From the NCBI RefSeq assembly GCF_037392515.1, contig NC_090288.1, forward strand, positions 7,433,501 through 7,497,500: DNA of 64,000 nt, given 5' to 3'. A model generated the notes under the pieces. The model did no database searches and was not told the origin of the DNA. It saw only the letters and a program-made list of their open reading frames with translations. The first letter of the stretch is position 1. The number at the start of each line of letters is the position of its first letter. Source of the stretch: Haliotis asinina (taxonomy: Eukaryota; Mollusca; Gastropoda; Lepetellida; Haliotidae). Positions 18,975-64,000 of the stretch are shown here, one piece after another. Both the position numbers and the translations under genes were made by a program.

Positions 18975-21454
18975 ATGGTTGCACATTTTGTCGCTCTTTT
19001 CTTTACAGGATTCATCGTATATACCGCTGCACCTGGCTCCAGTAAGTGAAAACAAAACGGATATATAGTGCCCCTGAAGGGCGATATAATGAAAACTGAA
19101 CAGGGAAATAAACACTGAAATTAAACATGATTTGTTTCCTTAGTCTTCACGTGGTGGAGCGTTCTTTCTTAATTTGATATTCGGAATTGTTTCATGTATG
19201 TTTTGCAACCGTGTGTACATTTATATATTTATCTTTACCTTGCTAAGGTTCTGTGTACCAATGTAGGATAGGCCATCATTTCATGAGAAGGAAACAGTGG
19301 TTGTCTGAAGCACAGAAGTGCCATCTAATTCCTCCTATGAGTGCATCAGAGTCTTTTCGTTTAGCAAGCCAAGATAGGCAGTTGATATTTCAACTATAGT
19401 GTTGCATAGCCTACAACCTTTTACAAAGTCTCCATACAAAACATGTTTCCAAAACGTATTTCAAGATAGAGAGTTAACTTAAACAGAATTTAATACATTA
19501 CTCATTGTCTCTAAGCTTGATTCTTAGGAGTAGTTTTTAAAAGTACTCATCACTTCTTTTGAAGCACCTACTCTTTTGTAAACTATTGACATGGGTCATG
19601 TAAGAATGCATCTGTTATTTGTGTAGTGCATTAAAGAGGAAATATGGTGAATCAACTACATTTTCCAAAATGCTTCTATAACAGTGATTCCTTTTTTGCT
19701 GAGATGCTTTTAGAAAAATAAGCAGGGATGACAGTTTTCCGGAAATCCACAGATTTAAATGCAAATCAATCAATCCTGGACCCTTTTTGGGCCTCAGACA
19801 ACCAGCTGGTTTTAAGCTGAAATCACTTTCATCTGCTGCCATCCCTGAGAAAGAATGACTTCCTTGTCGTATTATTTTATCAGAATTTAGGGTGTAAAAT
19901 GTAATGCATATAGATGCTTTTAAAATGCATTACCATTGTGTAAATTATTACCGATTTCGGTTTACTAAAATGACTTCTTTCTAATATTTATTGATTAAGA
20001 AACATTAATTGCCATTGTCAGGTTTCACACTGCCACACAGTTGACTTCACAGTATATGGAAATTGATATTAGAGATGTTGGAAGTTTTATGTATCAGTTC
20101 TTATCCCTATTTCAGGGTTTAATGATGTATACTTGCTTTTGGGGTTTCCCAAAATATAGAATTTTGCTGCCAGTACAGTGCTTGTAAGCAGAGGACACAC
20201 TTTGGTTTCACAACTTCTAGTCTATGTCCTGAAAAGTTCTCTAACTTATTCCCTGGCTCAAAACACATCAAATATGTCATTCAACATATTAGGATATATG
20301 AGGTTAATATCTTGCACACACAGCACTTTCAACTCAGCTGCAGGCACTTGATCTTATGATCCAGTTGTCTTGATTACATGTGATACGTGCAGATCTACCA
20401 TTGGCATGTAATCATGGTAAAGTGCAAGATCAAAATATAATTTTACTGCACATGAAGAACACAGAGAACACCAACTGAGCCAGAGCCCTTAGTTCTGCCC
20501 TGAAAACTTCTTGTGACTCCCTGTGCAAGGATCTTGTATTAAAAATATATGTTTTGTTTCAGGCTTGTTTTCATGGCACCCAACACTGATGGCCATTGCA
20601 GTAAGGACACTTTTATGATTCTACTCAGAAATAAACCTTGCTATGTTTGTAAATAAAGTACATTGAATTCATGGAGTGTCTGTTTTCATGAACATGAACC
20701 TGTTTGCTTAGATATCTTTGCCATGTTCTCCATTTACTTGTCTGTATACCATGTATACAGCATTTACTTGTATGAAAACTTGTAATATTTTGATTTGAAA
20801 GAAAATTTATTTATTTTAAATCTTAATAGTTTTCTGTTGAAAATTATCCCTGAAATTGGTACAGGATAACTAGTTGCATGTTATGAAGGGTGCACACTGA
20901 CTGATGCTTCATTCACTTCCTTTCAGTTTCTGCTGCTAATGTTTGAGGGCTTACTGGTATTTTCTCCAATCAGTTCCCTTGTACCAAGACAGTCGAGAGC
21001 TACAAAGGTCACGCTTCACTGGATGTTACAGGTTACATCCCTTACCTGTGCTATTGGAGGATTCGCAGCTATCTACTACAATAAAGAAATAAATAACAAA
21101 GAACATTTCACATCATGGCATGGTCTCATTGGAATGTCAGCCGTTGGGTATTCTTGCATGCAGATGCTGGGTGGCTCTGTGTTGAAATATCCTGCTCTTG
21201 CTAGTATCCTAAGAATAAAATTAAAACTGGCAGATCTGAAAATTGTCCATGCTACATCAGGATTGGTGTCCTTCATTCTTGTCTGTGTGAGCTTCATGCT
21301 TGCTATGTTTTCAAACTGGTTCTGTAAGAATGTGACTGGGACAACATGGTATGCTTGTCTTGGTTGCATTTCATGTATTTTGTTTATTATCATGAATCAG
21401 ATCACCAGTACATATTTGCCCAAAGTTAAGTCAAGGAAGAGAGTAGCACACTGA
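18975..21454 (+). CDS. CYB561D2: CYB561D2-type cytochrome b561 domain protein (complete, 3 exons)
   Basis: Coding exons 18975-19041, 20563-20600 and 20927-21454, with AG/GT borders and matching phases, give 210 residues. Order: VAHFVALFFTGFIVY (first membrane span), SSLFSWHPTLMAIAF, LLVFSP, LHWMLQ, SWHGLIGM, KIVHATSGLVS, VIIMNQ-like end (FIIMNQI). This follows human CYB561D2 (101F6, 222 aa). Four histidines sit where b561 proteins bind two b haems (SWHP, LHWM, SWHG, VHAT). These are six-helix membrane ferric or monodehydroascorbate reductases using ascorbate electrons. The start is the first in-frame ATG after a stop at 18921-18923, context CACAATGG. A short upstream coding exon spliced at the AG near 18947 is possible, since human has about 20 more N-terminal residues. 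It is head to head with NPRL2, as in human. Confidence 0.92.
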
Positions 21455-28315: not shown

Positions 28316-28423
28316 AACCAATCAGTCCTAGACGTTATCGATGCAGAGACCTGATATAACCACCAACAAGATGGGTCACTTTTTAGGTTGTTGTTGTTTT
28401 AGGGTGCACTCAGAAATATTCCT

Positions 28424-28514
28424 GGGTATAGATTTTCGAAGCTCTCTTACCGCGAAGATAGTCGTAAATTAGAGTCAACGTATGGCACTTATGACAGCTA
28501 CGAAAATCTAGGCC
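28424..28514. mobile_element. Small foldback element, family of the satellite progenitor (diverged)
   Basis: GGGTATAGATTTTCGAAGCT at the left and an inverted similar end (CGAAAATCTAGGCCC) at the right, 91 bp apart. The inner AGATAGTCGTAAATTAGAGT resembles the core of the copy at 30977-31083. Confidence 0.5.
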
Positions 28515-28519
28515 CAGCT

Positions 28520-30122: not shown

Positions 30123-30976
30123 ATGACGTATATGTCACGTGTTACATGATACTTATTACGTAGATGTTGATTAACACGGCATTATTCCAGGTATATCATA
30201 GCGACAGGTAAATAATATCGATTGTAAATGAAACGTCAGAAATCATATAAATGAAAAATAAGTTCAATAATTTTGTACGTATTTGCCTATCGATCATTTC
30301 ACAGTCTAAGTGCACTGTACCGGATCAAACAACGCCCCATCCCCAAATGTAATACTTTCCCCTGTTGACAGCCCACTGCCTAATGTACCTTGTTCCATGG
30401 CTGTACTGAAGGCTGTTGCATAGCAACTCTATTCTTTAAAGAGGAAAGTCTAGATAAACGGCCAGTACTAAGGACATCAGTCTGTTGGAGGAATATTTAC
30501 ATTTTTTAAAAGTTATCATTTAAACTGTTAATTATTACCTTGTAGACATGTGCAAGTCTAGAAAGAACGGCACGTTCAGCTGTTTAATATAGGCAGGTGT
30601 TTATGTGTTATTATATGTATCAACACAGTGACTGTTGACTGATCGGAGCTCTTTTGTTTGTGCCTATACAATGCGAGGCATTGATTTACCCCCTGGCTTA
30701 TCTTTAGATCGATGACGTCATGCATGACTAATACGTGAATAGTTAGGTGTTTATCAATATATCAGTAAAAGTCGTCGTCGTATTTGTATATACTGTTGTC
30801 TTATCACAGCAGTAGAGTATATATCACACATTCTGAATGTTGTCGGTGTTGCTATCCACTCACTCACTCACTCACTCACTCATTCACCCAGTGAAAACAT
30901 TGATATTCTGTTTCACAAGTCACATGGTATATAGGATTGGAACGAGGTAATGTCTGCCGTTTTCAGTTCTTATGAT

Positions 30977-31083
30977 GGGCCAGATTTCGAAGTTCTCCTA
31001 GCACTAAGATAGTCGCAAGTTAACATTAATGGATGGCACGTATAACTATCTCGGCGCTAAGAGAGCTTCGAAATTTTAGGCCC
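30977..31083. mobile_element. ~107-bp foldback element, single copy of the satellite progenitor family
   Basis: The ends are GGGCC and GGCCC with inverted flanks TTTCGAAG / CTTCGAAA. Two palindrome-like boxes, TAGCACTA (30999) and CGGCGCTA (31052), are exactly 53 bp apart. The core AGTCGCAAGTTAACATT resembles the satellite's AGTCGCAAGTCTATGTT. Confidence 0.65.
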
Positions 31084-40625: not shown

Positions 40626-40788
40626 ATAATGAAAACGCATTTGATAAATCAATGAATGGCGATTTATCTAAAGAAGGATTTCTTATCAAAATGTTTATCT
40701 ACCGGAGTAAACATTCGTAAGAAGAAACGCAAATGACAAAATATTCAGACGATGAGCACCGGTTTCTAGTTGTTCTGTTACACGACCA

Positions 40789-40898
40789 GGGCCCACCTGC
40801 ACAAAGCAATCTTAGCGCTACAATGATTGTAACTCCCATTCTCCAACATAAGATTAAGATTGTCGTAGCGCTAAGATCGCTTTGTGTAAGTAGGCCCC
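40789..40898. mobile_element. 110-bp foldback element, single copy of the satellite progenitor
   Basis: The ends GGGCCCACCTGCACAAAGC and, inverted, GGGGCCTACTTACACAAAGC are followed on both sides by the palindrome TAGCGCTA (40813-40820 and 40866-40873), 53 bp apart. The core read on the - strand (CTTATGTTGGAGAATGGGAG) parallels the satellite unit (CTATGTTAAAGTACGGGAG). No coding capacity. Confidence 0.8.
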
Positions 40899-58544: not shown

Positions 58545-58643
58545 GCTAACGTGCGTGCATGAGTGAGAGAGAGTGTGTCAGAGAGTGTGCGTATGAGAGA
58601 ATGTGTATGAGAGAGCGTGAAAGAGAGTGCGTGCCAGAGCGCA

Positions 58644-58680
<37 letters not shown>

Positions 58681-58791
58681 TAGATAGGGATAGAGACAGA
58701 GATAGAGAGAGAGAATTTGTATGAGAGAGAGAGTGCGTGAGAGAGAATGTGTATGAGAGAGCATGAAAGAGAGTGCGTGCCAGGGCGCATA

Positions 58792-58846
<55 letters not shown>

Positions 58847-58851
58847 GAGAC

Positions 58852-58882
<31 letters not shown>

Positions 58883-59160
58883 GAATTTGTATGAGAGAGA
58901 AAGTGTGCGTGAGAAAGAGATAGAGAGAGATAGAGATAGAGAGAGAGACAGATAGACAGATAGATAGAGAGAGAATTTGTATGAGAGAGAGAGTGCGTGA
59001 GAGAGAATGTGTATGAGAGAGCATGAAAGAGAGTGCGTGTCAGAGCGCATGTGTGTGAGAGAGAGAGGGGGAAGAGAATGTGTATGAGAGAGAGATAGAG
59101 AGAGAGAGAGAGAGAAAGGGAGTGCTTGCGAGTGTGAGAGAGGGAGTGTGTAGGAGTCTG
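58545..59160. repeat. GA/GT-rich compound microsatellite
   Basis: About 600 bp of (GA)n, (GT)n, (GATA)n and a longer unit around AGAGAATGTGTATGAGAGAG that recurs several times. The long serine/leucine frames on the - strand are products of composition. Confidence 0.9.
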
Positions 59161-60289: not shown

Positions 60290-60600
60290 TGTTGAACAAT
60301 GGGTAAACGATAGTTAAACAAAATCAGGCATGTAATTAAGGCAATTAAGTGACTATTAGTTATGGATACAGTTCCAGTACATACAGACCGGGACAAAATA
60401 AAGTATACACTTTTTGTGATGATAGCTAAATTAGATAAACAAGAGATGGGTTCTTGAAGGGTTTATGGATGTGGGTGTGGTTTTGTATGTGGAACCTATT
60501 GTGAAATACAAAAAGTGGACGTTTCTTGAAATTCAAGCTGACATTTGTCAGTTCTGTCCTGAAGCCATGCTACCTCAGCTGATGCAGATTACGCGGTTCC
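60290..60600. other. Spacer between the candidate exon and the satellite
   Basis: About 310 bp with no recognised gene; a 63-codon chance ORF only. Confidence 0.3.
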
Positions 60601-60601
60601 T

Positions 60602-60633
60602 GGGTCCCGTTCCTCAAAGTGATCTTAGCGCTA
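60602..60633 (+). mobile_element. Left end of the foldback element from which the satellite starts
   Basis: GGGTCCCGTTCCTCAAAGTG, then ATCTTAGCGCTAC, matches the left end of the single-copy element at 40789 (GGGCCC...CAAAGC-ATCTTAGCGCTAC). The first satellite unit follows without a gap. Confidence 0.65.
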
Positions 60634-63600
60634 CCGTAGTCGTCAGTCTACGTTAAAGTACGGTTGTTACTACTGTCGTAGCGCTAGGGCAGTCGCAAGT
60701 CTATGCTAAAGTACGGGAGTTACTACGGTTGTAGCGCTAGGGCTGTCGCAAGTCTATGTTAAAGTACGGGAGTTACGATTGTCGTAGCGCTAGGACAGTC
60801 GCAAGTCTATGCTAAAGTACGGGAGTTACGATTGTCGTAGCGCTAGGGCAGTCGCAAGTCTATGTAGGACAGTCGCAAGTCTATGCTAAAGTACGGGAGT
60901 TACGATTGTCGTAGCGCTAGGGCAGTCGCAAGTCTATGTAGGACAGTCGCAAGTCTATGCTAAAGTACGGGAGTTACGATTGTCGTAGCGCTAGGGCAGT
61001 CGCAAGTCTATGTAGGACAGTCGCAAGTCTATGCTAAAGTACGGGAGTTACTACGGTTGTAGCGCTAGGGCTGTCGCAAGTCTGTGTTACAGTACAGGAG
61101 TTACTACTGTCGTAGCGCTAGGACAGTCGCAAGTCTATGCTAAAGTACGGGAGTTACTACGGTTGTAGTGCTAGGGCTGTCGCAAGTCTGTGTTAAAGTA
61201 CGGGAGTTACGATTGTAGTAGCGCTAGGTCTCTCGCAAGTGTATGTTAAAGTACGGGAGTTACTACTGTCGTAGCGCTAGGGCTGTCGCAAGTCTGTGTT
61301 ACAGTACGGGAGTTACTACTGTCGTAGCGCTAGGACAGTCGCAAGTCTGTGCTAAAGTACGGGAGTTACTACGGTTGTAGCGCTAGGGCAGTCGCAAGTC
61401 TGTGTTACAGTACGGGAGTTACTACTGTCGTAGCGCTAGGACAGTCGCAAGTCTATGCTAAAGTATGGGAGTTACGATTGTCGTAGCGCTAGGGCAGTCG
61501 CATGTCTATGTAGGACAGTCGCAAGTCTATGCTAAAGTACGGGAGTTACTACGGTTGTAGCGCTAGGGCTGTCGCAAGTCTATGTTAAAGTACAGGAGTT
61601 ACGATTGTCGTAGCGCTAGGGCAGTCGCAAGTCTATGCTAAAGTACGGGAGTTACGATTGTCGTAGCGCTAGGGCAGTCGCAAGTCTATGTAGGACAGTC
61701 GCAAGTCTATGCTAAAGTACGGGAGTTACTACGGTTGTAGCGCTAGGACAGTCGCAAGTCTGTGTTACAGTACAGGAGTTACTACGGTCGTAGCGCTAGG
61801 ACAGTCGCAAGTCTATGCTAAAGTACGGGAGTTACTACGGTTGTAGCGCTAGGGCAGTCGCAAGTCTGTGTTACAGTACGGGAGTTACTACGGTCGTAGC
61901 GCTAGGACAGTCGCAAGTCTATGTTAAAGTACGGGAGTTACTACGGTTGTAGTGCTAGGGCTGTCACAAGTCTGTGTTACAGTACGGGAGTTACTACTGT
62001 CGTAGCGCTAGCACAGTCGCAAGTCTATGTAGGACAGTCGCAAGTCTATGCTAAAGTACGGGAGTTACTACGGTTGTAGCGCTAGGGCTGTCGCAAGTCT
62101 ATGTTAAAGTACGGGAGTTACTACGGTTGTAGCGCTAGGACAGTCGCAAGTCTGTGTTACAGTACGGGAGTTACTACTGTCGTAGCGCTAGGACAGTCGC
62201 AAGTCTATGTTAAAGTACGGGAGATACTACTGTCGTAGCGCTAGGACAGTCGCGAGTCTGTGTTAAAGTACGGGAGTTACTACTGTCGTAGCGCTAGGAC
62301 AGTCGCAAGTCTGTGTTACAGTACGGGAGTTACTACTGTCGTAGCGCTAGGACAGTCGCAAGTCTATGTAGGACAGTCGCAAGTCTATGCTAAAGTACGG
62401 GAGTTACTACGGTTGTAGCGCTAGGGCTGTCGCAAGTCTATGTTAAAGTACGGGAGTTACTACGGTTGTAGCGCTAGGACAGTCGCGAGTCTGTGTTAAA
62501 GTACGGGAGTTACTACTGTCGTAGCGCTAGGACAGTCGCAAGTCTGTGTTACAGTACGGGAGTTACTACTGTCGTAGCGCTAGGACAGTCGCAAGTCTAT
62601 GTTAAAGTACGGGAGTTACTACGGTTGTAGTGCTAGGGCTGTCGCAAGTCTGTGTTAAAGTACGGGAGTTACGATTGTAGTAGCGCTAGGTCTCTCGCAA
62701 GTGTATGTTAAAGTACGGGAGTTACTACTGTCGTAGCGCTAGGGCTGTCGCAAGTCTGTGTTACAGTACGGGAGTTACTACTGTCGTAGCGCTAGGACAG
62801 TCGCAAGTCTGTGCTAAAGTACGGGAGTTACTACGGTTGTAGCGCTAGGGCAGTCGCAAGTCTGTGTTACAGTACGGGAGTTACTACTGTCGTAGCGCTA
62901 GGACAGTCGCAAGTCTATGCTAAAGTATGGGAGTTACGATTGTCGTAGCGCTAGGGCAGTCGCATGTCTATGTAGGACAGTCGCAAGTCTATGCTAAAGT
63001 ACGGGAGTTACTACGGTTGTAGCGCTAGGGCTGTCGCAAGTCTATGTTAAAGTACAGGAGTTACGATTGTCGTAGCGCTAGGGCAGTCGCAAGTCTATGC
63101 TAAAGTACGGGAGTTACGATTGTCGTAGCGCTAGGGCAGTCGCAAGTCTATGTAGGACAGTCGCAAGTCTATGCTAAAGTACGGGAGTTACTACGGTTGT
63201 AGCGCTAGGACAGTCGCAAGTCTGTGTTACAGTACAGGAGTTACTACGGTCGTAGCGCTAGGACAGTCGCAAGTCTATGCTAAAGTACGGGAGTTACTAC
63301 GGTTGTAGCGCTAGGGCAGTCGCAAGTCTGTGTTACAGTACGGGAGTTACTACTGTCGTAGCGCTAGGACAGTCGCAAGTCTATGTTAAAGTACGGGAGT
63401 TACTACGGTTGTAGTGCTAGGGCTGTCACAAGTCTGTGTTACAGTACGGGAGTTACTACTGTCGTAGCGCTAGGGCAGTCGCAAGTCTATGTAGGACAGT
63501 CGCAAGTCTATGCTAAAGTACGGGAGTTACTACGGTTGTAGCGCTAGGGCTGTCGCAAGTCTATGTTAAAGTACGGGAGTTACTACGGTTGTAGCGCTAG

Positions 63601-64000
63601 GACAGTCGCAAGTCTGTGTTACAGTACGGGAGTTACTACTGTCGTAACGCTAGGACAGTCGCAAGTCTATGTTAAAGTACGGGAGATACTACTGTCGTAG
63701 CGCTAGGACAGTCGCGAGTCTGTGTTAAAGTACGGGAGTTACTACTGTCGTAGCGCTAGGACAGTCGCAAGTCTGTGTTACAGTACGGGAGTTACTACTG
63801 TCGTAGCGCTAGGACAGTCGCAAGTCTATGTAGGACAGTCGCAAGTCTATGCTAAAGTACGGGAGTTACTACGGTTGTAGCGCTAGGGCTGTCGCAAGTC
63901 TATGTTAAAGTACGGGAGTTACTACGGTTGTAGCGCTAGGACAGTCGCGAGTCTGTGTTAAAGTACGGGAGTTACTACTGTCGTAGCGCTAGGACAGTCG
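60626..64000 (+). repeat. 53-bp satellite array, running off the right edge
   Basis: The unit is bounded by TAGCGCTA and reads GGGCTGTCGCAAGTCTATG, TTAAAGTACGGGAGTTACTA, CGGTTG. The first two palindromes are at 60626 and 60679, 53 bp apart. About 60 units are in view. Variants differ at a few sites (GGCTG/GACAG; TACTAC/TACGAT; TTACAG/TTAAAG). Some units carry an extra 21 bp (TCTATGTAGGACAGTCGCAAG), making 74-bp units. A higher-order period of 1,462 bp covers at least 61150-63980. Confidence 0.97.

Follow-up and report, generated by a model that had tools for sequence, protein, structure and literature searches.

Tandem arrays born in MITEs or foldback elements are already known from Xenopus, bivalves and Drosophila, as the accessible portions of the relevant sources describe them. 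The Xenopus MITE miDNA4 carries one or a variable number of tandem monomers in its interior, and short direct repeats have been proposed as their cause (Scalvenzi and Pollet, 2014; from excerpts of PMC12628747 and PMC9659126). Xstir occurs as a MITE, as a tandem array and in mixed forms, with repeats that come from the MITE interior (Hikosaka and Kawahara, 2004; from excerpts of PMC12628747). The foldback element Tetris of Drosophila virilis is an inverted-repeat element that yields tandem repeats, for which unequal crossing-over has been invoked (PMC4079207, in excerpt), while the small pearl and DTC84 elements of bivalves hold up to six internal repeats, with a palindrome near the repeat junction in DTC84 (PMC5139131, in excerpt). 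The birth of minisatellites between direct repeats of 5–10 bp is likewise a published model (Haber and Louis, 1998; via an excerpt of PMC6947457).

A 64,000-nucleotide stretch of the Haliotis asinina genome (C9:7433501-7497500, hereafter the window) holds an array that invites comparison with these systems; all genome-wide counts below refer to one assembly of 1.14 Gb in 159 contigs. Like miDNA4, the element concerned is a MITE with one or several internal tandem monomers. Unlike miDNA4, in which, according to the excerpts, a Tc1/mariner MITE has captured a tandem repeat, its monomer is its own core plus one palindromic box, its flanks are of CWG type and its units are mostly private to one locus. 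As in Xstir, the repeats derive from the MITE interior, but the loop excision between neighbouring elements proposed in the accessible text on Xstir differs from the arrays seen here, which lie within one element. With Tetris, so far as its source was available, it has in common an inverted-repeat element producing tandem repeats and the appeal to unequal exchange. In Tetris, repeats located within the long inverted ends supply shared satellite arrays, whereas ours lie between ends of only 23 bp, which sets the element apart from the foldback (FB/Tetris) type. The pearl/DTC84 elements are similar in being small and having internal repeats, DTC84 also in its palindrome near the junction; in contrast to the pearl-type repeats, which the consulted part of PMC5139131 links to widespread satellites, the units here are mostly locus-private. 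As in the Haber and Louis model, in the form available to us, a stretch between very short repeats would be duplicated and then expanded; unlike in that model, one parent sequence provides many comparable starting sites and two predictable periods. A literature search by sequence (TAGCGCTA and three longer strings) gave no title on a repeat element among the matches listed, and a search by topic gave no description of this element among the matches listed, with subscription papers mostly outside its scope.

The array is bounded on the left by CTG (60600-60602, unstranded), the left copy of a probable 3-bp target duplication, and the same CTG stands on the right at 64354-64356, outside the window. 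The left terminal inverted repeat of a family-C element, GGTCCCGTTCCTCAAAGTGATCT, follows at 60603-60625 on the plus strand, where the initial annotation had already placed an element's left end. Together with the first unit (60599-60686), this end is 82% identical to the family-C consensus versus 69% to family A. The array proper runs on the plus strand from 60626 to the window edge at 64000 and continues outside to 64323. It is 3.7 kb long, and its 66 boxes span 60626 to 64323, the final box having decayed to TAGCTCTA. Its unit, correctly measured at the outset as 53 bp from box to box, is the box TAGCGCTA plus 45 bp, and is accompanied by a 74-bp variant that is 32 bp short of two units. 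The far end, some 350 bases outside the window, reads CGGTCGCTTTGTGGAATGGGGCC, which matches the left end in inverted form, and it runs to about 64353. Closure of the array by the element's right end had been set as a test of the initial proposal, and it came out in its favour: the array lies inside a single element with both ends, and its unit is the box-to-box interval. With at most one mismatch, TAGCGCTA occurs 74 times in the window versus 13 expected, 60 of the 74 being inside the array. At higher levels, a repeat of 339 bp (5x53+74) is present, and a 1,798-bp block (61013-62810) recurs at 62475-64272, at a distance of 1,462 bp and with 98.0% identity. Such layering (53, 74, 339 and 1,798 bp) is the pattern expected from unequal exchange. 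Shortly 5' of the array, GA-rich repeats occupy 58580-59115, one of them with a 148-bp period and about two copies.

Three families, designated A, B and C, follow a common plan of end, box, 45 bp, box and end, and each comprises single-unit copies, the abundant form, and at least one tandem locus. Family A (end beginning GGGCCCACTTGCACAAAG) has 76 copies of single-unit length with both ends exact; family B (end with CTAGATTTTCGAAGCTCTCT before the box) has 1533 ends with at most one mismatch; and family C (end GGCCCCGTTCCTCAAAGCGATCG followed by the box) has 106 strict ends. The family-C consensus, drawn from 27 single-unit copies, is 115 bp long with flanks included and has inverted ends and well conserved boxes; mean identity to it is 0.81, and C may be the oldest of the three families. 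Genome-wide, the pattern TAGCGCTA-N45-TAGCGCTA matches 1150 times and its reversed control not once, and three TAGCGCTA in a row at 53-bp spacing occur 406 times. Being short and non-coding, with terminal inverted repeats and many dispersed copies, these elements are MITEs. The target-site duplication of a MITE is also present, of CWG type according to flank comparison, with CTG on both sides of the window array. Of the 37 family-C loci with A or T in both flanks, 25 have the same W in each (p = 0.024), as do 37 of 50 copies in family A (50 listed of the 76 copies; p = 0.0005), and the complete 3-mer flank is equal in 15 of the 37 family-C loci. A 5-bp target duplication was rejected, all five CCWGG letters being equal in only 5 of these 37. 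The target of zebrafish Harbinger3 is centred on CCWGG. Family-C ends adjoin a family-B-like end at a CCWGG target in L046, L048, L053, L065, L068, L096, L118 and L122 (L053, L096 and L118 by eye), as if each family inserts into the other's target duplication. CWG target duplications and ends usually starting GGG are described for the NuwaI group of the PHIS superfamily in the available part of PMC4482050. The CWG duplication is present at our elements, and after it their ends start GGC or GGT; reading a GGG start would shorten the duplication. In sequence, the CWG flanks and GG-starting ends resemble those of the NuwaI group of PHIS, and we do not file the element as NuwaI. Elements of that group would be driven by a DDE transposase and a Myb/SANT protein encoded by an element with matching ends; in the genome, 150 DDE_Tnp_4 transposase matches were scored.

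Two other elements in the window had been linked to the array, one of them as its source. The first, a single-unit family-A element on the minus strand (40787-40897; 94% to a family-A sequence), has the two boxes 53 bp apart that were originally reported, TAGCGCTA at 40813 and 40866, and is 78% identical to the family-C consensus over the full length. The second, a single-unit element on the minus strand at 30976-31083, does show 53 bp from box to box, but both boxes have decayed (TAGCACTA at 30999, CGGCGCTA at 31052) and it belongs to family B (85% to a family-B sequence). Relative to shuffles, folding back scores z = -7.7 for 40789-40898 and z = -4.1 for 30977-31083. Sequence comparison added a further, internally shortened family-B element of 96 bp (28422-28517, unstranded) that was absent from the initial annotation. 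The statement that the array and foldback cores align better than shuffled sequence holds for both cores: the majority of 48 window units is identical to the 40821-40865 core in 31 of 46 columns and to the 31007-31051 core in 29 of 45, with 0 of 1000 dinucleotide shuffles as good in either case; for the opposite strand of the 31007-31051 core, 31 of 1000 shuffles were as good. What fell was the source itself, since the element at 40789 belongs to family A and the array fits the sister family C. By their sequences, the foldback elements at 40787 and 30976 appear to be cousins of the array's parent, not the parent. As for coding content, Pfam searches on 10 of the 31 open reading frames of the window gave cytochrome b561 and reverse-transcriptase RNase H only, besides one weak match below the cut-off; in that order, the two are an ORF with the domain at 20870-21451 and a fragment at 1370-1909.

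The share of family-C insertions that carry arrays was counted in a sample of 90 loci (L036-L125) taken from 100 listed ends of the 106. Left out were four more C6 sites near L084-L086, the far end of L072, three C15 sites and one C16 site; L045, the other end of L044, was dropped and the window array (L016) added, so that the number stayed at 90. Flank matches marked L038, L039, L070, L085, L086, L101, L119 and L120 as segmental duplicates, and their removal left 82 loci. From 28 tandem rows, the duplicates L038, L039 and L085 were subtracted, and so was L089, whose duplication involves other sequence, leaving 24. Arrays are thus present in 24 of the 82 sampled insertions, 8 of the 82 being copies of one longer carrier repeat, so that independent insertions number nearer 75. 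The intermediates predicted initially do exist, as loci with 2, 3, 4, 5 and more units besides the window array. Both element ends were seen in 11 of the 24 arrays, and elsewhere the sequence read ended inside the array or no right end was recognised. The window array is not the sole long one: boxes at 0, 265 and 530 bp, as ten units in phase would place them, gave 95 matches, with no fewer than 15 loci including the window array, in a listing as far as C12. Within C6:4803496-5169467 (L084-L086), seven family-C ends lie in 370 kb, three of the six intervals measure about 58 kb and flanks are common to the three compared; this is probably a large segmental duplication.

The two main periods of the arrays equal the spacings of short direct repeats in the parent. 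In the family-C consensus, the direct repeats at a distance of at least 15 are 11 bp at 53 (TAGCGCTACGA), 7 at 17, 6 at 67, and 5 at 50, 36 and 17. The longest, 11 bp and 53 apart, is the box plus CGA, and 53 is also the commonest period in the sample (11 of 24 arrays). Because the ends are inverted, a motif found in both is normally an inverted repeat, and a palindrome alone is also direct, which places the longest direct repeat at the boxes; the initial annotation had been right to treat the palindromic box as a direct repeat in spite of the inverted ends. The repeated unit holds the box in 19 of the 24 arrays (nearly all units have it with no more than one mismatch, and a box in L053 has two), and in 8 of these 19 the best period is not 53 (39, 45, 46, 50, 52, 52, 55 and 55), as expected if a local indel preceded growth. 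The unit is without a box in L037, L072, L076, L078 and L109, with L076 having box-spaced units around a 27-bp stretch. The period of L072 and L109 is that of a TACGA pair, 5 bp long and 36 apart in the consensus, so no box is needed. In searches of the genome with 31-letter patterns and at most two mismatches, the 53-bp box junction matched 650 times (289+361) and the 36-bp junction 688 times (370+318), with 0 matches for the reversed controls; among the matches listed, perfect junctions lie at 22 loci or more for the 53-bp and 20 or more for the 36-bp type. Box-less 36-bp units of the same core occur at C4:54152632-54155583, C2:70842238-70847148 and about 19 more loci, near-identical at at least 20. 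The array at C4:54.15 exceeds 3 kb, and one-mismatch matches spread over 5 kb at C2:70.84. From L072 (both ends) and L109 (left end), we infer that the genome-wide 36-bp arrays lie inside family-C elements. The 36-bp unit could also stem from a 53-bp array via a 17-bp deletion between TACGA repeats. By eye, the period of 29 in L037-L039 fits two AGAC motifs at this distance in the locus, and for the periods of L076 (27) and L078 (39-41) no matching direct repeat was identified. Given an unexpanded parent with an 11-bp repeat at 53 and a 5-bp repeat at 36, and arrays of both periods, the case has the form of minisatellites arising between short direct repeats.

Units were compared among 25 loci, consisting of 14 of the 24 arrays, L021-L024 and seven from the genome-wide triple-box listing; L048, L078, L103 and L114 were left out, so that 18 of the 22 chained loci were used. 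Mean unit identity was 0.92 within loci, 0.705 between loci and 0.709 among single cores, and within-locus identity exceeded the mean between-locus identity in all 25. Of 90 units, a fraction of 0.81 had the nearest neighbour in their own locus, versus 0.04 after label shuffling. For the window unit type, 41 of 41 matches in the 1.14 Gb fall in this single array. The term satellite, used in the initial annotation, could not be kept for the window array, as a satellite would have one monomer in long arrays at many sites or in heterochromatin and this unit type was seen at a single locus of 3.7 kb. Units follow one another head to tail, with one orientation in 21 of the 22 loci with two or more chained units, and the exception, L048, proved head to tail on direct reading. 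Transposition or conversion may have carried some units between loci, or these units simply lie close to the consensus, given that L021 and L023, 1.3 Mb apart, have identical units and different ends, and that in several loci, including L058, L063 and L094, the best match in another locus equals or exceeds the mean within. A carrier repeat (left near GGCAAGTAATCTGG, right near ATGGCTTACAGATAAATAA) that may be another transposon moving a family-C end and units holds such an end with one to five units; of its eight copies, five are one-unit (L064, L082, L083, L113 and L124), L107 has one and a partial unit, and L058 and L071 have five. Taken together, single-unit carriers, locus-private units and abundant single-unit copies argue that growth runs from one to many, in place and repeatedly. 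In 11 of 13 loci (L063 left out because its right end is uncertain), the units differ less from one another than the two ends of the element do, a weak timing test as the ends have only 23 bp and were perhaps unlike from the start; in L038/L039, 29-bp arrays of one segmental family, the units are more diverged than the ends.

Our preferred reading, to which we give a probability of roughly 0.86, is that the window array grew by in-place duplication between short direct repeats inside an old family-C MITE insertion, and that this was repeated at many insertions of families A, B and C. The starting point would be one old insertion of a non-autonomous DNA transposon of about 110 bp, whose inverted ends, about 23 bp long and each with a palindromic box at the inner edge, enclose a 45-bp core. 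After insertion, replication slippage or unequal exchange would have duplicated, at the site itself, the stretch between two short internal direct repeats. This doubled stretch would then have lengthened as unequal exchange involved blocks of increasing size (53 bp, 339 bp and 1.46 kb). The putative seeds are the box pair (11 bp, period 53), TACGA (5 bp, period 36) and, at one locus, the AGAC pair (period 29). Slippage or unequal exchange as the molecular step, and the temporal order of events, are what we infer. A bolder version, which we put forward tentatively and with more doubt than conviction, is that the palindrome at the inner edge makes the inverted ends direct repeats, so that each insertion would be a loaded minisatellite seed with a preset period, with independent births at dozens of sites seen and about a hundred by extrapolation (13-14 loci in ~150 Mb).

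The TAGCGCTA palindromes themselves might instead drive amplification, through hairpins or cruciforms and fork stalling. We consider this unlikely, even though the box is part of the repeated unit in 19 of 24 arrays, boxes are well conserved in the family-C consensus and folding back is much stronger in two complete single elements than in their shuffles. For stretches of the array, the advantage over shuffles is small or absent (z -0.6, -1.0 and -1.5), and hairpin folding of the array unit was for this reason rejected as a driver. Box-less 36-bp junctions are as frequent genome-wide as the box junctions, and units stand head to tail, whereas palindrome-driven exchange could also invert cores. 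Family B is instructive here, with a 14-bp direct repeat at its boxes (TCTTAGCGCTAAGA, by eye) and yet tandem junctions at only 16 loci (31 matches) versus 1533 ends, which indicates that a palindrome is not sufficient; its palindromes were accordingly dropped as a stronger seed, and an age difference may explain the small number. In family A, one clear array locus accounts for 10 of 16 matches. The exchange between palindromes proposed in the initial annotation is therefore upheld in part: it agrees with the 11-bp repeat at 53 and with the arrays whose unit includes a box, and it disagrees with the 5 of 24 arrays without one, the equally frequent 36-bp class and the few tandem loci of family B.

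The sharing of units between L021 and L023 bears on two further explanations. A satellite could have multiplied its units at one place, with transposon ends seeding other loci, as proposed for Tetris and miDNA4, and the common units of two stretches at C1:88.67, separated by about 1 kb, would also suit it. Against this, the window unit type is confined to one locus, most units have their nearest neighbour in their own locus and the listed stretches with boxes at 0, 265 and 530 bp are kb-sized, and we regard it as quite improbable. Still less probable is an ancestry in which multi-unit elements were the original mobile form and later collapsed to single-unit copies. The repeated length changes in the window array could be read in that way, but the 76 single-unit copies of family A, the excess of family-B ends over its 31 tandem junctions, the privacy of units and the single unit in 5 of 8 carrier copies speak for the opposite direction. 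Long tandem arrays are difficult to assemble, so the length of the window array may be off; that the array as such is an assembly artefact is hardly credible, with both flanks and both ends present, an ordered higher-order structure and other arrays of just 2-5 units. Duplication in place between short direct repeats of an inserted MITE remains the explanation that we prefer.

On our preferred reading, the window array is one of many home-grown minisatellites rather than a spread-out satellite. As far as we have seen, two things are new: how many times arrays have arisen in parallel from a single parent, and the agreement of both main periods with the parent's short direct repeats. Tandem arrays seldom preserve the initial step of their own birth. 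In this genome, unexpanded copies of one parent sequence, intermediates of two and three units and kilobase arrays coexist, which makes models of the first duplication testable by counting, with homology length, spacing, palindrome and age as countable variables. If the seed reading is true, the family would offer a natural replicate series for tandem-repeat birth. The mostly locus-private character of the tested arrays suggests that the step from MITE to array need not end in a satellite.
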